Source of the DNA: Sinorhizobium sp. B11
GTDB taxonomy: Bacteria; Pseudomonadota; Alphaproteobacteria; Rhizobiales; Rhizobiaceae
Direction: 5' to 3'
DNA length: 64,000 nucleotides
Assembly (NCBI GenBank): GCA_039725955.1
Contig: CP091033.1
Span: forward strand, 1,302,001 to 1,366,000
Positions 19,811 to 57,351 of the stretch are shown here, piece by piece (the stretch's first letter is position 1; every line of letters starts with the position of its first letter). The notes beneath the pieces are model-generated. The model worked only from the letters and a program-made list of their open reading frames with translations, did no database searches and was not told where the DNA came from. The translations under genes and the position numbers were made by a program.

Positions 19811-20809
19811 TCAGGCCGACTGGATAGCCTTGATGCGGTCGAGGCCGCCTACGATCGGGGCAAAATCGTCCCAGACGCCCTGCGCGCCCTTCTGCCATTC
19901 TTCCGGAGCTTCCGGCTTCAGCAGCTTGCCACCGTTCTTCAGCGAGATTTCCACCGAGGCCGCCTCGTCATCGACAATCAGTTGGTTGAAGTAGGCGGCA
20001 CCTTCTGTGGAGGCTTGCTGGAAGACAGCCCTCTGCTCGTCATTCAGGCCACCCCAGAAGGTCGAGGAATAATAGACGATCCCTGAAGCCCAGATATGGC
20101 CGGTCTCAGTCATGTAGGGCACGACCTCATAGAGCTTGAAGCCTGCATAAGCCGATTTCGTGAGGTCCATGGCATCTGCAACGCCCGTTGCCAGTGCATT
20201 ATAGGTCTCGGTGATCGGAATCCCGATCGGCGTCGTGCCAAAAGCGCTCCAGAGCCTGGTATGCAACGGGCTCTGAATGACGCGGATGCGCTTGCCCTTT
20301 AGTTGTTCCGGACGCGTCACCGGCTCCTTGGTCAGGAGATGGCGGGCACCGTAATTGATGAAATCGCCGACGACGAAATTCTGTGCCTGTAACTTGCCCT
20401 TCAGATCGGCACCGACATTGCCACTGACGGTGCGGCGGACATGATCGGCATCGTGAAATAGGAAGGGAAGGTCGAGGATCTGAAGTTCCGGCGCCCAGCC
20501 GGAGAGCGAGGAAACGGTGGAAAGACTGGCGTGGATGGAACCGAGGCGGACGCCTTCGGCCACTTCCTTTTCACCGCCGAGCGCACCGTTCTTGACGATG
20601 TTGAACTTGAACTGGCCGGGCAGCTTCGCCTCGACCAGCTCGTTGATCTTTATCCAGATCTTCGTCTCCGGCTTGTCGTCTCCAAGCAGCGAAGCGACGG
20701 TGATCGTCGTCGTGCGGGCGGCCGCGGTGCGAACGAAAGCCGGTGCGGCAAGAGCGGTACCGGCAATCGCCGTGGTCTTCAGAAAATTGCGGCGATTGAG
20801 ACTGTCCAT
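19811..20809 (-). CDS. TRAP transporter substrate-binding protein (DctP family)
   Basis: The 332-residue precursor has a Tat-type signal (NRRNFLKTTAIAGTALAAPA) and the DctP pattern: GGEKEVAEGVRLGSIH, LDLPFLFHD, KGKRIRVIQSPLHTRLWSAFGTTPIGIPITETYNALATGVADAMDL (about 160-205, containing the Arg that binds the substrate carboxylate). TRAP systems use ion gradients to import organic acids. ATG 20809 was preferred over an upstream in-frame start because it gives the canonical Tat start MDSLNRRNFLK. It lies 17 bases after the fused membrane gene. Which acid it binds cannot be read. Confidence 0.9.
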   Translation of the reverse strand: MDSLNRRNFLKTTAIAGTALAAPAFVRTAAARTTTITVASLLGDDKPETKIWIKINELVEAKLPGQFKFNIVKNGALGGEKEVAEGVRLGSIHASLSTVSSLSGWAPELQILDLPFLFHDADHVRRTVSGNVGADLKGKLQAQNFVVGDFINYGARHLLTKEPVTRPEQLKGKRIRVIQSPLHTRLWSAFGTTPIGIPITETYNALATGVADAMDLTKSAYAGFKLYEVVPYMTETGHIWASGIVYYSSTFWGGLNDEQRAVFQQASTEGAAYFNQLIVDDEAASVEISLKNGGKLLKPEAPEEWQKGAQGVWDDFAPIVGGLDRIKAIQSA

Positions 20810-20826
20810 GAATGAAATCCTGTCCG

Positions 20827-22656
20827 TTAGAAGATGATCGCCCAGACGCAAAGGATTGCGAGCGAAACGAGAAGGGCAAGCAGATAGGGAACGACCGCCT
20901 TGAAAAGGGCGGATGCCGGAATGCGGGTCACCCCGCTGACGACGAAGATCAGCATGCCCAGCGGCGGTGTCAGCCCGTGTATCATCAGGTTCACCACGAT
21001 GATGACGCCGAAATGGATGGGATCGATGCCTGCGGCGACGGCGGCCGGCAGAAGGATCGGGCCGAAGAGCAGGATCGCAGCGCCGATATCGAGAACCAGT
21101 CCGACGACCAGCAGGATGATGTTCGACAGCAAGATCACGGCAAGCGCACTGCCGCCGAGCGCCGTCGTCAGATGAGAGATCAGGCCCGAGACATCGTCAA
21201 CAGCCAGCAGGAACGCAAAGGGACCGGCAGTGCCGATCAGCAGGCCAATAGCTGCCGCTTCGACAGCCGCCTGGCGAAAGGCGGCATAAAGCGAGAGCAC
21301 ACCAAGCCGAGCGCCGATGCCGAGCAGGAAGGTATAGAAGGCAGCAAGGGCTGCGGCTTCCGTCGTCGTGACGATGCCGATGCGGATGCCGACCACGACA
21401 ATGACGCCAAGACCGAAGGCCGGGATCGCCTGGACGGCCGATTGCCGGCGTTGCGCCCCTGTGGCCCGCGGGATGGGCGTCTGATCGCGAACCGTCAGAT
21501 GAATGGCAATGGCCAGACAGATGGCCATCAGCCCACCGGCAAAGAAGCCCCCAACCAGCAGCGAACCGACCGAAAGATTCGTGGCGGTTGCCAGGATCAG
21601 GAAGGCGATCGATGGCGGGATGACATTGTCCAGCACCGAAGTCGCCGCGATGATCGCCGCGGCTTTGGCCGGCGGATAGCCGTGACGGACGAGTTCCGGC
21701 TGGAAGGTCGATGCGCCAAAAGCGGCATTGGCAACGGATGAACCGGAAGCGCCCGAAAAGAGCACACTGGTCAGCAGCGTCGTCTGGGCAAGACCAGCGC
21801 GGCGATGGCCGACCATGGCGGCGGCGAAGCGTACGAGCTGGTTGGCAACGCCCGATGCCGTCAGCAGACCGCCGGCGAGCAGGAAGAAGGGGATGGCAAG
21901 CAGCAGGAATTTCGAAATGCCCGTGACCGTCGACGAGACGATCGCCGGCTCCGGCAGGCTGCTGCCGAAGGCGATAACCACATAGGCCGCGGCCAGGAAG
22001 GCATGTGGCAGGGGTGCCGCGAGTACCAGGCCGATGGCAGCAATCAGCCCGAGGAAGATGCTGGGCGGCCAATCAAGCTCGATGGAGATAAAAGGGATAC
22101 TGGCATAGAGCGCGGCGCCGACAGCAAAGGAGAGCAGGACCGGCCACGCCTTTCCTTCGACGATGCGCTGCAGCAGAAGCACGACGAGGATCAGCGCGCC
22201 GCCGGCGCCGAGGAAGCCGAAGCGAATCCATTCCGGCACGCCCAGTGTCGGGGAAGTACCTCCGAGCATAGTCATGATCTCGGAGCCGCCGAAGCTCAGG
22301 ATAAGGCCGGAGAGCACAGTGAAGACATCGGCGGCCACCTGCGTTGCCGGATGCAAACGCTTCGGCATCATATTGGCGAAGACGTCGAGACGCATGGCAA
22401 GCGCGCTATTGAGGCTTAGCGGCGCCCCGAGCGCAATCAGCAGCACATGCAGCCAGATGCCGAGATCCTCGGCGCCGATGAAACCGGCGGCGAAGAAATA
22501 GCGCATGCAGACCGTGACCAGCACCATGAAGAGCAGCACGGCAAGGACCGACGCGGCGGCGACGCCAAGGACGGTTTCGATCGCCTTTAGAATGCGGCCG
22601 GCGAGGCCACCACCTGTCATCTCCCGTTCGGCTGGGTGGAATTCGCTTGCTGCCAC
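20827..22656 (-). CDS. TRAP transporter, small and large membrane subunits fused (DctQM)
   Basis: The 609-residue protein joins a four-helix DctQ domain (about 15-185; LLFMVLVTVCMRYFFAAGFIGAEDLGIWLHV) to a DctM domain with twelve or so spans (about 190-609; AIPFFLLAGGLLTASGVANQLV, SGASGSSVANAAFGASTF, DNVIPPSIAFLILATATNLSVGSLLVGGF). DctM couples the sodium gradient to transport. The start is probably GTG 22656, with AAGAGAG eight bases before it; ATG 22620 has its purine run too close. The membrane gene precedes the binding-protein gene, the reverse of the common order. Confidence 0.9.
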   Translation of the reverse strand: MAASEFHPAEREMTGGGLAGRILKAIETVLGVAAASVLAVLLFMVLVTVCMRYFFAAGFIGAEDLGIWLHVLLIALGAPLSLNSALAMRLDVFANMMPKRLHPATQVAADVFTVLSGLILSFGGSEIMTMLGGTSPTLGVPEWIRFGFLGAGGALILVVLLLQRIVEGKAWPVLLSFAVGAALYASIPFISIELDWPPSIFLGLIAAIGLVLAAPLPHAFLAAAYVVIAFGSSLPEPAIVSSTVTGISKFLLLAIPFFLLAGGLLTASGVANQLVRFAAAMVGHRRAGLAQTTLLTSVLFSGASGSSVANAAFGASTFQPELVRHGYPPAKAAAIIAATSVLDNVIPPSIAFLILATATNLSVGSLLVGGFFAGGLMAICLAIAIHLTVRDQTPIPRATGAQRRQSAVQAIPAFGLGVIVVVGIRIGIVTTTEAAALAAFYTFLLGIGARLGVLSLYAAFRQAAVEAAAIGLLIGTAGPFAFLLAVDDVSGLISHLTTALGGSALAVILLSNIILLVVGLVLDIGAAILLFGPILLPAAVAAGIDPIHFGVIIVVNLMIHGLTPPLGMLIFVVSGVTRIPASALFKAVVPYLLALLVSLAILCVWAIIF

Positions 22657-22935: not shown

Positions 22936-24015
22936 CTACTTCTTCTCACGCGTCCGATTCGTGAAATGGGCGTTTCCGAGGCCGGTGCCGATCGTGAGGA
23001 CCGCCCAATTCGCAACGTCCTTCATCTGCGGCATCTGAGAAAGCCCCTGCACGACCGCGTCATTGTGCATCATGATGAACGTGTCATCGCCGCCGATCTG
23101 CGGAATAGCCTTTTTAAGTTCGAGCGGAAGATTGAAGTGATCGCTTTCCCAGTTTCCACCGGGCAGATTTTGCCCACCGCGCGTGATCGAACCATCGGCT
23201 TCAATCACTCCGGGACATCCTATACCGATCAGCGGGGCAAGCCTCAGCTGAGACGCTGTCGCCTCTCCTATGAGCTCCTCGATCATGGAGGCGAGCTTGG
23301 AAATGGTGGCGGTACGACTGGGCTCGTCATCGGCATGGCGCCAAAGGATCGATTTCCGCACATGGGTTTCATCAAGATCCCGGCTTTTCCCCTTGCCGAA
23401 CTCGACGATACCGGCGCGCACGTTGGTGCCACCGATATCGACAGCCAGGATCGCTTCGTGGCCGTTCAGCATCCAGTCCGGCATAAGATAGACTGCACCG
23501 ATCAGGCCGGCTTCGTCCGCGTGATGGACGATTGGGACAAGCTCGACGCCGAGACCCGACGCGTTGAGCAGGATCTGCGTCCTGGCGATCGCCAATTCGC
23601 CGACACGCCCCTGCCGGAATCCACCGCCGACAACGATCCGTTCGGTTTTCGACCAAGCGCTGTCTTTGAGAAATTTTTCGATCACAGCAGCAAAATCCTG
23701 CGCAAAGCCCTCGATTGCAGCCATGACGATGGCGACCGCCCCGACATCGTCACCGCACAGGAAAGCATCGATCTTCTTCTTTGAGAGCTCTTTCGTCGGT
23801 GTCCGCCCCAGCGGATCCTTCCCGTCCATGCGCATCAGTTTACGGAGCTCTTCGAGCTTCAACTGGAAGGTTTTCTTGTTGGCGTCGTCGCCCAGAAACC
23901 CATTTTTGCCGCGCAATTTAGAGCTGTGGCCGTCGACGATGACCGACGACAGTTCGGCGGCGCCGTGAACCAGCGGCGCCGTCCGGGTCTGCTTTTCAGA
24001 TTTTGCTTTTGGCAT
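22936..24015 (-). CDS. ROK-fold protein with circularly permuted motif order, probably stress-induced
   Basis: The 359-residue protein has ROK (sugar kinase) motifs in an unusual order. Residues 90-180 resemble the usual C-terminal ROK lobe (IEGFAQDFAAVIEKFL, RIVVGGGFRQ, ADEAGLIGAVYL). The phosphate-1 motif AVDIGGTNVRAG follows at 191-202, then GIGCPGVIEADG (264-275), NLPGGNW (283-289), HNDA (317-320) with the expected catalytic Asp319, and IGTGLG (342-347). It ends 12 residues later. The usual ExGH and CxCGxxGC zinc segment is absent. I recall similar proteins annotated as ROK family in other rhizobia. ATG 24015 was chosen over a longer frame because an EcfG-type promoter ends at 24062. Kinase activity is unproven. 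Confidence 0.75.
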   Translation of the reverse strand: MPKAKSEKQTRTAPLVHGAAELSSVIVDGHSSKLRGKNGFLGDDANKKTFQLKLEELRKLMRMDGKDPLGRTPTKELSKKKIDAFLCGDDVGAVAIVMAAIEGFAQDFAAVIEKFLKDSAWSKTERIVVGGGFRQGRVGELAIARTQILLNASGLGVELVPIVHHADEAGLIGAVYLMPDWMLNGHEAILAVDIGGTNVRAGIVEFGKGKSRDLDETHVRKSILWRHADDEPSRTATISKLASMIEELIGEATASQLRLAPLIGIGCPGVIEADGSITRGGQNLPGGNWESDHFNLPLELKKAIPQIGGDDTFIMMHNDAVVQGLSQMPQMKDVANWAVLTIGTGLGNAHFTNRTREKK

Positions 24016-24061: not shown

Positions 24062-24087
24062 AACGCGGGGTCAATGAGAGAGGTTCC
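24062..24087 (-). promoter_or_regulatory. EcfG-type (general stress) promoter of the ROK-like gene
   Basis: On the minus strand GGAAC (24087-24083) and CGTT (24065-24062) are separated by 17 bases, fitting the alphaproteobacterial EcfG/RpoE2 consensus. It lies 47 bases before ATG 24015. Confidence 0.65.
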
Positions 24088-24170: not shown

Positions 24171-24206
24171 TTGCATGATGCAGGTCAGGTCAAGGAGTGG
24201 AAAACG

Positions 24207-24818
24207 ATGACGCAAAGCGAAGCCGACAAAAGCCCATACCGGTCCCTGACTTTGACATCCCTCTTTGATGATCGAGACGTCGCCGCACAGGCGGTTGAGA
24301 GTCTGAGGGCGGCCGGTATTCCGCAGGCAAGCATCAGCCTGATCGCAGAGGCGGAAAATGCAACGGAAAACGCTGACGAGAAACCTGGCCCGTCACACAA
24401 GCTCGAAGATTTTCTGTTCCCAGAAGCCGACCATGCGATCTACAGCGAGGGGATCCGACGAGGCGGCCATGTGCTGACCGTGCGCGGGCTGGCACCTGAC
24501 CGGCACGAACTCGCGCTCGGCATTCTTGAGGACGCAGGCGCTGTCGATCTCGACGAGCGCATCGAGACGTGGCGATCTGAAGGCTGGAGCGACACACAAG
24601 CCTACCTTGACGAACTGCAGGAGCCGCCCACGGTGATCGATGGCGATGTCGCCGCCTCGCTTATCGGCAAAGGTCGAGGCAATGAGGTTGTACCTGTCAT
24701 CACCGAGAAGCTTAAATTCGGCAAGGCGAGTGATGGAAGCCGCCCTCGCGTGCGAATCTACACCGTTGAATACGCATTGAAGAGCCCGGACGACAGGAAG
24801 GGGTCCAGTTCCCGGTAA
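24207..24818 (+). CDS. Predicted general-stress protein with YflT-like N-terminal domain
   Basis: The 203-residue protein has an N-terminal module (about 8-95: LTLTSLFDDRDVAAQAVESLRAAGIPQASISLIAE and IRRGGHVLTVRG) like the YflT/GS17M domain of heat- and salt-induced proteins. A short Asp/Glu-rich linker and an unassigned C-terminal part follow (LDERIETWRSEGW, EVVPVITEKLKFGK, VRIYTVEYALK). AAGGAGTGG precedes ATG 24207. It is divergent from the permuted ROK gene and both have EcfG-type promoters, so the pair is probably induced together under general stress. Molecular function is unknown. Confidence 0.7.
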   Translation: MTQSEADKSPYRSLTLTSLFDDRDVAAQAVESLRAAGIPQASISLIAEAENATENADEKPGPSHKLEDFLFPEADHAIYSEGIRRGGHVLTVRGLAPDRHELALGILEDAGAVDLDERIETWRSEGWSDTQAYLDELQEPPTVIDGDVAASLIGKGRGNEVVPVITEKLKFGKASDGSRPRVRIYTVEYALKSPDDRKGSSSR

Positions 24819-24888: not shown

Positions 24889-25881
24889 TTAGCACCTCCA
24901 GCGCAATGCAGCGGTGGCAACGGGCGAATCCCATAGCGAAAACTCCTCATCCGTGAGGAAGGCAAGCGTGATGGAAAGGCCCTGCATGTCGAGCGAGGTC
25001 GCATAGGTGCCAACAAGCGAGCGTTCGACCTGCAGACCGTACTCCGACACGGTGCGAAGCGCAGAATTATAGGCGAGATAGAGTTCGGCAGGCGGTGTGC
25101 CGCCAAGTCCATTCACGAGAAGCAATGCTTTGTTTGTGCTTCGGTTGATATCGCTGAGAATCGTCTCGCTCAGATACCTGACAATCGTGTCAGCGTTGGA
25201 GAACCGCTCCCTTGAATGGCCAGGCTCGCCATGAATGCCAACGCCCATTTCCACCTCGTTCGGCCCGAGCGCGAATGTCGTGCGCTGGGTGTCCGGCACC
25301 GCGACGCCGGTCAGGGCAACGCCCATCGACCGGATGCGTGAGGAGAGACTGTCGCCAAAGGCCTTCAGTTCCGAAAGGGACCGGCCCTTCTCGGCAGCCG
25401 CTCCGAGCAGCCTTTCCGTGATAAGCGTACCGGCAACCCCGCGTCGCCCACGACCGTCGCCGCCCCTCGTCGTTTCGATGTCGTCGCAGGCAAGGACCAT
25501 TTCAATTTTATGCCGGTCTGACGCCATTTCTGACGCCATTTCGAAATTCATGACGTCGCCATCGTAGTTCTTGACGACGAGCAGGCAGCCAGCACCGGTG
25601 TCTGCTTCCTCTATCGCACTGACGATCTGGCTCGGTGTGGGCGATGTGAAAATATATCCGACACAGGCAGCATCGAGCATGCCGCGACCGATGAAGCCGA
25701 TATGCATCGGCTCATGGCCCGCCCCGCCGCCAGAAATGATGGCGACCTTGCCAGGAACCAGCTCACGGCGGCGAATGCATTTGCGGCCGGCGCCGAACAC
25801 AACGAACTCCTGATGGGCGCGCACGAAACCTTCGATACTCTCGGCGACCATAGTCTCTGCCGTGTTCATGAATTTCTTCAT
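24889..25881 (-). CDS. dhaK: Dihydroxyacetone kinase subunit DhaK
   Basis: The 330-residue protein is a full-length DhaK: ISGGGAGHEPMHIGFIGRGMLDAACVG (about 49-75), VVKNYDGDVMNFEMA (102-116) and GIHGEPG with the substrate-binding His217, which forms the hemiaminal with the ketone. It would receive phosphate from the DhaL/DhaM relay encoded upstream. ATG 25881 follows GGGAGGGGCT; a longer frame to 25932 is less likely. It is the last gene of the long ABC/Dha operon and is separated from dhaL by four genes. Substrate may be dihydroxyacetone or a related ketose such as erythrulose or apulose, since the DhaK family is promiscuous. Confidence 0.88.
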   Translation of the reverse strand: MKKFMNTAETMVAESIEGFVRAHQEFVVFGAGRKCIRRRELVPGKVAIISGGGAGHEPMHIGFIGRGMLDAACVGYIFTSPTPSQIVSAIEEADTGAGCLLVVKNYDGDVMNFEMASEMASDRHKIEMVLACDDIETTRGGDGRGRRGVAGTLITERLLGAAAEKGRSLSELKAFGDSLSSRIRSMGVALTGVAVPDTQRTTFALGPNEVEMGVGIHGEPGHSRERFSNADTIVRYLSETILSDINRSTNKALLLVNGLGGTPPAELYLAYNSALRTVSEYGLQVERSLVGTYATSLDMQGLSITLAFLTDEEFSLWDSPVATAALRWRC

Positions 25882-25940
25882 CAAGCCCCTCCCAAGGCGA
25901 TGATCATGCCAATCCTTTTGCATGTGCCACAAGGGCTTGC

Positions 25941-26351
25941 TTAATCCGGCAGCCCGGAAATTGCTGCGATCTTCTGCACCAAATCCGCAATCGCCTCCTC
26001 AAGCAGCCGGTTGCGTCTCTCGTCGCCGAAATCGGGCACCATCAGCGAAAGGTGCCGCAGTTTTTCCGAGGCGCCAAGTTCCGGCAGCTTGCCCGGATGT
26101 GCCGCTTGATAGGCATCCAGAAAGCGCTCCTGTTCAGCGGCACTGAAATGGCACACCCGGAAGATCGTGGCGAGGTGTCGGGCAGGAAGCGGCGTTGCAT
26201 AGGTCGGGCTTGTTATCTGCGTTACGAAACTGCGATGCTTGCCGAGTTCCGTCGCAAGGCGCTGGCGTGTTCCGGAAGGCCTGTTGTCAATGATTTGCGC
26301 CAGAATAGACTTATAGGCGATAATGGCGTCTTCCGTGTCTTCGCGCGCCAT
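25941..26351 (-). CDS. Small helix-turn-helix (XRE-like) protein in the Dha operon
   Basis: This 136-residue protein has a probable XRE-type helix-turn-helix near residues 20-70 (GTRQRLATELGKHRSFVTQITSP, ARHLATIFRVCHFSAAEQERFLDAY) and a charged helical C-terminus. It starts at ATG 26351, directly after the Enzyme I stop, and precedes dhaK by 59 bases. It may regulate the operon or act as a regulatory partner of the PTS proteins. I know no characterised homologue. Confidence 0.6.
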   Translation of the reverse strand: MAREDTEDAIIAYKSILAQIIDNRPSGTRQRLATELGKHRSFVTQITSPTYATPLPARHLATIFRVCHFSAAEQERFLDAYQAAHPGKLPELGASEKLRHLSLMVPDFGDERRNRLLEEAIADLVQKIAAISGLPD

Positions 26352-26352
26352 C

Positions 26353-27933
26353 CTATTCTCCGGCTGCCTTTGTCCCATCTGCCCTCAGGCCGACGATTGC
26401 CGATCTTATCGCGGGAAGCTGAGCAGGCGCCACGGAAAAATACCGTATGCCTGCGGCAAGCAGGTTCGCGGTGAGGGACGGATCCCCCGCCATGTCGCCG
26501 CAGATGCTGACCGGTTTGCTCCCGGCGAGTTTTATAGCCTGAGTCAGCAGACGCAGTACGGCCGGCACCGCCTTGACCTGATAACGGGCGAAGTCGGCAT
26601 CCTCGCGTGGCGATGCAACGAGATATTGTGCAAGGTCGTTCGTCCCGAACGAAAAGAAGTCAGCGCTTTCGAACTCATCCAGCATGAGCGCGGCCGCCGG
26701 GACCTCTACCATCATCCCGATCGGGGGTATGCGATGCGGGACGGCTCGCCGAGCAAGCTCGCCAGACTCTTCACGATAAATCTGCCTGATATCGTCGACG
26801 TCGGATGGAAACATCACCATCGGCAGCATGATATGAAGATTGCCGAAAACTGCCGCGCGTAGCAGCGCGCGGGCTTGAACACGTGCGATCTCCGGCCGGG
26901 CGAGCAGAAGACGGATACCGCGCAGCGATGGTGCTTCGGCAAGTCCGGCGAGCGGTTTGTCGCCGCCTATATCCAGCATGCGAATTGTCGTTGACCGGCC
27001 GTCCGCCCAATCCAGCAAGCGGCGGTAGATCTCGAACTGTTTTTCTTCGTTTGCGGCGTCCCCAAGCGATGTCAGGGCAAATTCGGAGCGCATCAACCCG
27101 ATGCCGGCGGTTGTCGCAGCATCGACCGCATCGATTTCGTTGGGAGCGTTGACGTTGATAGCCAGCAGGACCGGAGAACCGTCGGCCGTGCACAAGGTGC
27201 CGTTGTCGGCTATCGATACCATGCCCACCGGGCGATGATCGGGCGGAGCCAACTGCTCCCTCCGCTCGGTTATCTGAAGCGTGATGATACCTGACTCGCC
27301 ATCAATCCCGATATGCTGCCCCTTCTCCGTCGCGAATTGACCGGCACCAATGACCATTGGCACCGAGCGAGACCTGGCAAGAAGGGCGACATGGCCGACG
27401 GCACTGCCCGCATAAAGAGCGATACCCCCGCCTGCCGACCAGTCATGTGCCAAGAACCGACTGGGCTCCATGTCTTTTCCTACATAGATGGAGCCTGCGG
27501 GAAAGTCGTCGATCGGCGCCCCGGCAAGGATCGAAAGGACGCGATTTTTGACGTCGAGAATGTCGACCGCACGCGCCTGCAAACGCTCTTCCTCCGCGCA
27601 TTCCAACTCGCGGATGTAGTCATCGAGTGTCTCGACCCAGGCAAATTCAATATTTTCGCCGGCATCGATCAGGGCACCGACCATCTCCATCAACGTCGGG
27701 TCCTGTAGCACTTCGATCTGAAACTCGATGATCTCGCGACTTTCGGGATCTGTCCCAGCTGCAAGGTCGCGTAATTCGCGGATGGCCTTGTCGATGGCAT
27801 CGCCTAGGGCTGCGTGGCCGGAAAGGCTTGATGCCGGCGACGCGACGGCGGGCATCGGCTGAGCGACATAGACGGGTCCGGTTGCAATGCCTGGCGACGC
27901 ACTTGTCGCTTTCAATTTAGGCTGAGCGACCAT
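26353..27933 (-). CDS. PTS Enzyme I-type phosphotransferase dedicated to the Dha system
   Basis: The 526-residue protein has the Enzyme I layout: N-terminal HPr-binding helices, the phospho-His domain with AGSAVGHVALLARSRSVPMVIG (active His181, in place of the usual GGxxSHxAI) and the PEP-binding barrel with MLDIGGDKPL, RGIRLLLARPEI, LPMV, FFSFGTNDLAQYL and the active Cys in SICGDMAGDP. It would transfer phosphate from PEP to the HPr encoded next door. ATG 27933 has 17 bases overlap with the HPr gene. It is about 40 residues shorter than housekeeping Enzyme I and is distinct from the PTS-Ntr Enzyme I, which has a GAF domain. Confidence 0.88.
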   Translation of the reverse strand: MVAQPKLKATSASPGIATGPVYVAQPMPAVASPASSLSGHAALGDAIDKAIRELRDLAAGTDPESREIIEFQIEVLQDPTLMEMVGALIDAGENIEFAWVETLDDYIRELECAEEERLQARAVDILDVKNRVLSILAGAPIDDFPAGSIYVGKDMEPSRFLAHDWSAGGGIALYAGSAVGHVALLARSRSVPMVIGAGQFATEKGQHIGIDGESGIITLQITERREQLAPPDHRPVGMVSIADNGTLCTADGSPVLLAINVNAPNEIDAVDAATTAGIGLMRSEFALTSLGDAANEEKQFEIYRRLLDWADGRSTTIRMLDIGGDKPLAGLAEAPSLRGIRLLLARPEIARVQARALLRAAVFGNLHIMLPMVMFPSDVDDIRQIYREESGELARRAVPHRIPPIGMMVEVPAAALMLDEFESADFFSFGTNDLAQYLVASPREDADFARYQVKAVPAVLRLLTQAIKLAGSKPVSICGDMAGDPSLTANLLAAGIRYFSVAPAQLPAIRSAIVGLRADGTKAAGE

Positions 27934-28261
27934 GCTTCTTTTCCTCATCGAAGTTACGCTCGACGAGACCCTTCAATGCGCGAACCGCTTCCTCGGCGAG
28001 GATCCCCTCTGCGCGAATCCTCAGCAACGATCCCTTGCGGATCCTGGCACCCATGATCTTGATGATGCTCTTTCCATTCAGCCAGAGATCACTCCCGTTG
28101 ATCGCGACTTCGATCGAGCAGGGAAACGATTTTGCAAGCCGGGTGAATGTGACCGACGGCCGGGCATGCAACCCTACACCATGCTTGACCTCGACTTCCG
28201 TCTGGCAGCTGGCGTGCATCTGCTCACCCTCGCGGCTTTCTACGCGCAATCCACCGTTCAT
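27917..28261 (-). CDS. HPr-family phosphocarrier protein
   Basis: The frame gives 114 residues with the HPr core: GLHARPSVTFTRLAKSF (active His32 in this numbering), LNGKSIIKIMGARIRKGSLLRIRAEG and a C-terminal extension of about ten residues. It should shuttle phosphate from the adjacent Enzyme I to DhaM. ATG 28261 overlaps the dhaM stop (ATGA). A second ATG at 28219 has a better GAGGG spacing and would give the usual 100 residues, so the start is uncertain. In E. coli HPr- and EI-like domains are fused to DhaM; here they are separate proteins. Confidence 0.88.
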   Translation of the reverse strand: MNGGLRVESREGEQMHASCQTEVEVKHGVGLHARPSVTFTRLAKSFPCSIEVAINGSDLWLNGKSIIKIMGARIRKGSLLRIRAEGILAEEAVRALKGLVERNFDEEKKHGRSA

Positions 28262-56151: not shown

Positions 56152-57351
56152 ATGAAGACTGCCGATCCTGAATTGATGCGTGCCATCAACCGCTTGAACG
56201 TGCTGGATACGATCCGGCGCCACGGCCCGATCTCCCGCATCCAGATCAGCGAACGCACTGAATTGTCCACGACGACAGTTTCGGCCATTACCGCCTCGCT
56301 TCTCGACGACGGGCTCATTTTGCCGATTCACGAGGGCGATATCCGCAACGAGGCGGTGCGTGGCAGGCCGCGGGTCATGCTTGAGGTCAATCCGGATGCT
56401 GCCCGCGTCGTCGGCGCCAAGATCGCAGCCAGCCGCATGATCTTCGTCGTGACCAATTTCCGCGGCGACGTGCTCTCCAAGCTCACCCTGCCGATCCGCA
56501 TTGATCGACAGCCAATTGCCGTGATTGCCGACCTCATCGAGGATGGAGTGCGACGCTGCGTCGTCGATATCGGCCTCTCGCTCGATGATATAGACAGCAT
56601 CTGCCTGGCACTTCCCGGCGTCATCGAACACCGTACCGGCCACATCCGTTCGAGCCCCATATTCCGCGAAGTCAACATTGATTTTGCTGCGGAAATGTCC
56701 GCCCGCCTGTCGACGCCGACGATCATCGAGAGCGACGCACATGCCGTAACGCTTGGCCATCACTGGTTCGGCAAGGCCCGTGATCTCGAAGACATGGTGC
56801 TGATCTCGCTGGAGCAGACGCTCGGTCTCGGCGTGCTGCACGACAATCAGCTCTTTCGCGGCGCCGGCGGCCTCAGCCACAATCTGGGCGACCTGGTTCT
56901 CGGCATGGGCCAGCAAGGCGTCGTCAGACTTTCCAGTCAGGCCGGCGAAAGTGCCATTCTCGGCGAACAGCAGGCCGATGGACGCTTTGCCGAAGCGGTG
57001 CGCCTCGGCCGCGGAATGACGCATGTGCAGGCGCTGATCCAGGCCGACGACGACCGGCTCATTGCCGCGGCCGTGCGCGCCGGCGAGGCGGTGGGGCTGA
57101 CAATCGCCAATATCGTCACGCTGTTTGCACCGCCACGCGTCATTCTCGTCGGCTCCTCGCTTGCGCTGGGTGAGCCCTTCCTCAACAGCCTGCGGGATGC
57201 CTATTCTCTGGCTATCCCACCGTCTCTCAAAGGCGTCAGCGAACTCGTCTTCGACGATTCGACCGACGATTTCTGGGCGCAGGGTGCAGCCGCTGTCGCC
57301 CTTTACGAACTCTACGAATCGCCTTGGAGCACAACAGGGCCTGCGCTTTGA
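56152..57351 (+). CDS. ROK-family transcription repressor (XylR/NagC/Mlc type)
   Basis: The 399-residue protein has an N-terminal winged helix (about 8-65: INRLNVLDTIRRHGPISRIQISERTELSTTTVSAITASLLDDGLI) and a ROK domain (about 80-390: VVGAKIAASRMIFVVTNFRGDVL, LPGVIEHRTGHI, ESDAHAVTLGHHWFG, SLEQTLGLGVL). The DxGGT kinase loop is not conserved and the CxCGxxGC zinc motif is missing, so it is a sensor rather than a kinase. ATG 56152 was chosen over upstream starts for its standard N-terminus. It likely controls the divergent importer and the two genes downstream. Confidence 0.9.
   Translation: MKTADPELMRAINRLNVLDTIRRHGPISRIQISERTELSTTTVSAITASLLDDGLILPIHEGDIRNEAVRGRPRVMLEVNPDAARVVGAKIAASRMIFVVTNFRGDVLSKLTLPIRIDRQPIAVIADLIEDGVRRCVVDIGLSLDDIDSICLALPGVIEHRTGHIRSSPIFREVNIDFAAEMSARLSTPTIIESDAHAVTLGHHWFGKARDLEDMVLISLEQTLGLGVLHDNQLFRGAGGLSHNLGDLVLGMGQQGVVRLSSQAGESAILGEQQADGRFAEAVRLGRGMTHVQALIQADDDRLIAAAVRAGEAVGLTIANIVTLFAPPRVILVGSSLALGEPFLNSLRDAYSLAIPPSLKGVSELVFDDSTDDFWAQGAAAVALYELYESPWSTTGPAL

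Follow-up and report, generated by a model that had tools for sequence, protein, structure and literature searches.

What kind of protein is encoded at 22936..24015 on the (-) strand of a 64,000-nucleotide stretch of Sinorhizobium sp. B11 (contig CP091033.1, positions 1,302,001 to 1,366,000; hereafter the window), given that it carries the motifs of ROK sugar kinases in an unusual order? An earlier note on this DNA had read the product as a circularly permuted, zinc-free ROK fold that forms a distinct family, is induced by stress and acts on an unknown substrate. Our analysis established by computation the swapped motif order, the fold of each half of the protein and the presence of an EcfG-type promoter motif, while catalysis, substrate, phosphate donor and induction are matters that we infer. 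The reading that we favour, with a confidence midway between doubt and acceptance, is that this permuted ROK fold is a likely ATP-dependent hexokinase, probably for glucose, which is predicted to be EcfG-induced and to supply glucose-6-phosphate for trehalose synthesis.

Translation of the 359-residue open reading frame (stop codon included in the coordinates) placed all six motifs at the residues given by the earlier note. From the N-terminus, and all on the (-) strand, these are IVVGGG (residues 127-132, 23620..23637; G130-G132 invariant), which we take to be the adenosine motif; ADEAGLIGA (residues 166-174, 23494..23520), which is C-terminal in normal ROKs; DIGGT (residues 193-197, 23425..23439), the phosphate-1 loop, which is N-terminal in normal ROKs; GCPG (residues 266-269, 23209..23220; C267, P268 and G269 invariant); HNDA (residues 317-320, 23056..23067; H317, N318 and D319 invariant), with the predicted catalytic base Asp319; and IGTGLG (residues 342-347, 22975..22992; G343-G347 invariant), presumably the phosphate-2 loop, twelve residues before the C-terminus. 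The equivalent of the C-terminal half of normal ROK kinases occupies residues 16-186 (23458..23970, (-)), as placed by the BglK profile and by a model of residues 16-187, and the equivalent of the N-terminal half follows at residues 187-354 (22954..23457, (-)). A loose regular expression found the six motifs in exactly this order in 118 of 134 family sequences (106 loci and 28 database proteins, duplicates included); of the remaining 16, 14 were without one or two patterns and two had the first match of one pattern elsewhere. The reversed order is therefore real, and the survey of homologues for motif order that the earlier note had proposed bears it out.

Profile comparisons indicated that both ROK lobes are present. 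The Pfam ROK model aligned its positions 2-141 of 294 with residues 190-353 (30.8 bits vs a cut-off of 22.9), and it was by these positions only that the curated threshold was passed. In the NCBIfam BglK model, residues 79-177 aligned to positions 198-284 of 291 (E 0.0012 for the N-terminal half alone), and the C-terminal half alone aligned to positions 3-140 (E 0.00025); as the end of BglK is matched by the N-terminal half and its start by the C-terminal half, the order is swapped. The N-terminal half otherwise matched in Pfam only FGGY_C, a C-terminal domain of sugar kinases (E 0.0023, under its cut-off), and Ta0938 (E 0.05). The solved BglK-like structure 4htl also gave a swapped sequence alignment, which was very weak (whole-sequence E 0.066, with neither stretch significant singly). 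A profile of ten ordinary ROK proteins from the same genome matched residues 75-178 with its end (positions 289-385 of 402; only 5.7 bits) and residues 188-352 with its middle (positions 90-234; 24.8 bits).

Rotating the family sequence yielded a single full-length ROK alignment. By hhalign profile-profile comparison with the ten-ROK profile, the unrotated family aligned over 147 columns with a score of 83.9, and rotation by 180-186 residues extended this to 305-306 columns, nearly the whole ROK, with scores of 102.6-103.7. Other rotations scored 53.9-97.8, the highest being those by 140 and 160 residues, which partly restore the order, and 20 shuffles of the N-terminal half scored no more than 85.2. 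A second profile of 129 ROKs (120 glucokinase homologues, the query among them, and nine other ROKs) gave 89.1 over 131 columns unrotated and 103.3-104.2 over 281-284 columns rotated, and the best of 50 shuffles reached 90.8. In the predicted structure, the model of residues 16-187 matched the C-terminal halves of ROKs, and alignments of the two halves jointly spanned about residues 1-141 and 140-282 of 4htl, both lobes being present in swapped order. The permuted reading of the earlier note is thus supported: Pfam and structure both match the C-terminal half to the ROK N-terminal lobe, and profile comparison matches the N-terminal half to the ROK C-terminal lobe, with weaker agreement from structure.

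The order of lobes also resembles that of the tandem hexokinases I and II (1dgk, 2nzt), in which the C-lobe of the first half is followed by the N-lobe of the second. Foldseek and VIA-align laid the permuted model across these structures in a region that we read as the junction of the halves. These are mammalian duplications of about 900 residues, with 10-14% identity and a root-mean-square deviation of about 28-35 A, which is that large because the two lobes belong to different domains. Membership of the eukaryotic-type hexokinase family was rejected, since Hexokinase_1 scored under its cut-off; its lack of a match in seven genomes is uninformative, as control genomes gave none either.

How far, then, does the protein belong among ROK kinases? 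It shares with the ROK sugar kinases (PF00480: glucokinase, N-acetylmannosamine kinase, BglK) both lobes and the motifs DIGGT, GxPG, NDA with the catalytic Asp, GTGLG, IVxGGG and AGLIGA, but differs in its swapped segments, in lacking ExGH and CxCGxxGC and in a unique GFxGDxA segment. Tested against the ROK signatures as given in PMC5458393, the DxGxT signature is conserved as DIGGT but lies mid-chain (residues 193-197) instead of N-terminally, and the catalytic aspartate is found as Asp319 in HNDA. The window protein has no ExGH sugar-binding signature (an E.GH string, its place in the chain unchecked, occurs in 3 of 134 family sequences), and the zinc signature CxCGxxGCx(E/D) occurs in 0 of 134. 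These absences agree with the earlier note, as does the retention of Asp319, which is invariant in alignments A1 and A3 and present in 99% of the 134 sequences. According to PMC5458393, the NanK of Fusobacterium nucleatum (5nck), an accepted ROK member, is also without the zinc motif, but has the normal order and keeps ExGH and the other ROK signatures. With DxGGT not N-terminal and ExGH and the zinc motif gone, the protein is more aptly called a permuted relative than counted as a standard member of the ROK family; it keeps the catalytic Asp and DxGGT, is homologous to ROK kinases and is predicted to work like one. Near-invariant positions of the family comprise the catalytic motifs, D67-P68, W121, NLPG and GFxGD. 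The last of these, GFLGD in the window protein (residues 39-43, 23887..23901, (-); G42 and D43 invariant in A1 and A3), appears from the profile alignment to occupy the place of the zinc/GCxE region of normal ROKs.

The family is distinct, as the earlier note had supposed, and widespread. Of 8,000 scored candidates, 7,994 were homologues at E <= 0.001; the best 120 of these were listed, and the rest may include ordinary ROKs. Among 398 Pseudomonadota genomes, surveyed with at most five scored candidates each so that weaker relatives may be missed, 22 carried the family at E <= 1e-20, in 25 places that each scored E <= 3.6e-106. Named members belong to Rhizobium, Sinorhizobium, Shinella, Phyllobacterium and Bradyrhizobium, and further members to Pseudoxanthomonas, Luteimonas, Lysobacter and Stenotrophomonas, which we take to be Gammaproteobacteria. 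Existing names include 'ROK family protein', 'glucokinase', 'predicted NBD/HSP70 family sugar kinase' and 'hypothetical protein'; as names were given from a match to half of a profile, the swapped order of the whole fold has been hidden. The genome of Sinorhizobium sp. B11 holds two copies that are 63% identical. The second, on another contig (C3), also has an EcfG box upstream, and genes for a 2OG-Fe(II) oxygenase and a Y-family DNA polymerase lie in its region. The literature searched for permutation, which mostly excludes subscription journals, listed no circularly permuted ROK kinase. Because the permutation is natural and the kinase family is large and looks active, it offers a ready test of the part that chain order plays in cleft closure, folding and dimerisation, and a test case for how such permutations arise.

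The claim of an EcfG-type promoter also held, with GGAAC-N17-CGTT at 24062..24087 (-), 46 nucleotides before the ATG. We took GGAAC-N16/17-CGTT as the EcfG (RpoE2) consensus, and strict matches to it numbered only two on both strands of the window; the other is a GGAAC-N16-CGTT at 461 (+). A strict box lay upstream in 60 of 106 homologous loci, some of which are the same gene fetched twice (e.g. L002/L084 and L034/L083), vs 14 of 2,672 control tiles, and almost all loci from Rhizobium, Sinorhizobium and Phyllobacterium had one. Stress control of the permuted kinase is a prediction from this promoter motif only. Term searches found no mention of ROK or glucokinase in the main text of the EcfG/RpoE2 papers PMC3892343, PMC3616915, PMC8877191 and PMC8092242, and the single 'ROK family' mention in PMC11387232 is a transcription-factor entry, SMa2004.

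Gene neighbourhoods, compared by tblastn over 107 loci and by codon-scored open reading frames (34 of the 277 listed neighbours were domain-scanned), point to trehalose and osmoprotection. A divergent otsB, annotated as trehalose-phosphatase in four of five annotated regions, lay within 260 nucleotides in 37 of 107 loci (with at least two duplicate pairs, L018/L125 and L034/L129) and farther off in three more. Of these 37 intergenic regions, 31 carried the EcfG box on the kinase strand and one carried it on the otsB strand; the six without a box were from Shinella. The gene beside the kinase in Sinorhizobium meliloti and its close relatives (five rows) encodes the NAGGN osmoprotectant system peptidase, and some loci of distant members adjoin a glycine-betaine transporter gene, a DUF892 gene, an iron permease gene together with a DUF2934 gene, or a DNA ligase gene. 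The other scanned neighbours, such as sulphur and citrate transporters and ribosomal protein L21, showed no stress theme; the last is the neighbour at the Bradyrhizobium-type locus L130 and is uninformative on function. Across genomes, otsA was present in 22 of 22 that bear the family vs 100 of 376 others. According to PMC8092242, glucose-6-phosphate is a substrate of OtsA, trehalose synthesis in Bradyrhizobium is under EcfG control, and this genus needs trehalose metabolism to withstand osmotic stress while it infects soybean. PF02685, the other glucokinase family, was missing from seven of the 22 genomes. In one single-contig genome (G287) the permuted gene was the only PF00480 match at E <= 10, and neither PF02685 nor the polyphosphate glucokinase model was found there.

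A stress hexokinase, probably for glucose, is the role favoured by the conservation of the active site, the stress promoter and the genomic context taken together. Across the 134 sequences Asp319 and the ATP-binding motifs vary little or not at all, which suggests that the protein is likely an enzyme rather than a relic. Compared with a 291-residue ROK, the chain would have been opened around residue 141, directly following the phosphate-2 hairpin of domain II, and its former ends joined, a rearrangement that puts the C-terminal piece first and DIGGT mid-chain. We predict that the model re-forms the two-domain cleft, where the phosphates would be bound by DIGGT and IGTGLG and the adenosine by IVVGGG, and where Asp319 would serve to activate the hydroxyl of the sugar. 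A family-specific segment, LPSVxVDxYN...GFxGDxA, stands in place of the lost zinc loop and ExGH. The EcfG general stress response would switch the gene on, and the glucose-6-phosphate formed would feed trehalose synthesis by OtsA. For the substrate, which the earlier note called unknown, context suggests a sugar that belongs to the metabolism of trehalose or osmoprotectants. A more tentative extension, which we hold to be somewhat doubtful, is that the family descends from an ancient natural circular permutation of an ASKHA (hexokinase/actin-fold) sugar kinase, shared by Alpha- and Gammaproteobacteria, with its ends in the domain II hairpin and the zinc loop lost at the new ends, and serves as a dedicated stress glucokinase feeding OtsA/OtsB. 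The protein also offers a testable and as yet unassigned connection from the general stress response of Alphaproteobacteria to trehalose metabolism.

A number of observations count against a permuted stress hexokinase. With regard to the fold, the Pfam ROK search with the N-terminal half that the earlier note had proposed detected nothing by that model alone, and single ROKs gave a full-length rotated alignment in only one of ten cases. The second of the two halves matching 4htl was the weaker match, and the N-terminal half model had no Foldseek match at E <= 0.001 (best 0.13). Its best VIA Z was 8.7, barely over the usual background of 7-8, and some of its VIA rows, the best two included, extend into the N-terminal region of the target. 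With regard to the role, the family is patchy (in the sample it occurs in one of the three further genomes of the genus and in none of the 13 further Rhizobiaceae, while 11 of these 13 have otsA), and strict boxes were absent from Bradyrhizobium, Shinella and gammaproteobacterial loci among the 106. The otsB gene was not within 260 nucleotides in 70 of 107 loci and is non-adjacent in the window (the otsBA of this genome lies elsewhere, on contig C2), in S. meliloti and in Bradyrhizobium, and otsA was not listed in any of five annotated regions around family loci. The co-occurrence with otsA is partly phylogeny: within the order, leaving out the own family, it was 14 of 14 vs 8 of 15 (p 0.004). 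A normal glucokinase stands alongside in 15 of the 22 genomes, that of Sinorhizobium sp. B11 included. PF02685 was also present in 17 of 17 Bradyrhizobium genomes reached through loci, at least two of which are also among the 22, so a general replacement of glucokinase by the permuted kinase is ruled out. As a side observation, the three genomes without PF02685 that hold L164/L171 (G217:C1:3423251-3423823), L170 and L172 have in these short polyphosphate-glucokinase-like ROKs with frames of about 226-246 residues.

Three other roles appear improbable, to much the same degree. The protein may phosphorylate trehalose or another osmolyte sugar instead of glucose and set the balance of trehalose and trehalose-6-phosphate against OtsB, an unlikely role with which the divergent pairing with otsB, the EcfG box on the kinase side and the replacement of the substrate-side ExGH by a family-specific segment are consistent; no otsB was detected in 67 of the 107 loci, however, and we know of no bacterial trehalose kinase of this fold, though no search aimed at one was made. 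We think it similarly improbable that a permuted ROK kinase uses inorganic polyphosphate instead of or besides ATP for glucose in starvation or stress. The polyphosphate/ATP ROK glucokinases (1woq; NF045942) match the permuted protein well in their DIGGT-bearing lobe, but have the normal order, and family members fall far under the NF045942 cut-off: seven of ten had matches, the window protein not among them, at no more than 25.7 vs 250 bits, and other ROK kinase models reach equal scores. It is just as unlikely that the protein is a non-catalytic, stress-made sugar sensor or scaffold. Many ROK proteins are repressors, several of which occur in the same genome, and the sugar-side ExGH and zinc motifs are lost; yet the catalytic Asp and the ATP motifs are kept in nearly all 134 sequences, and Pfam found no DNA-binding domain in the 359 residues, by which a ROK repressor was rejected. 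The alternative named in the earlier note, an unrelated N-terminal domain fused to a truncated ROK half, would fit Pfam seeing ROK only in residues 190-353 but is highly improbable, as the N-terminal half alone matches ROK C-terminal halves with IVVGGG and AGLIGA in register, and it was rejected on the profile matches, the rotation scans and the structure comparison of that half.

Around the permuted kinase gene, the divergent neighbour is a 215-residue open reading frame (24171..24818, (+)) that has no Pfam match and stands beside the gene in five of 107 loci, the window included. Directly downstream on the same strand is a TRAP transporter (19811-22656, (-)) in which DctQ and DctM are fused and DctP has a weak Tat signal. 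Farther off, at 24889-27948 (-), a Dak1 dihydroxyacetone-kinase domain gene, a small open reading frame and a gene resembling enzyme I of the phosphotransferase system stand in a row. Two other ROK genes were also noted. One, in the window at 56470-57300 (+), is a repressor-type ROK of normal order with a 461-residue frame and, by eye, an N-terminal helix-turn-helix-like region; the other, at G000:C1:119672-120539 (L118/L122), is ROK repressor-like, with its second half in a separate frame, and is possibly a frameshifted pseudogene.
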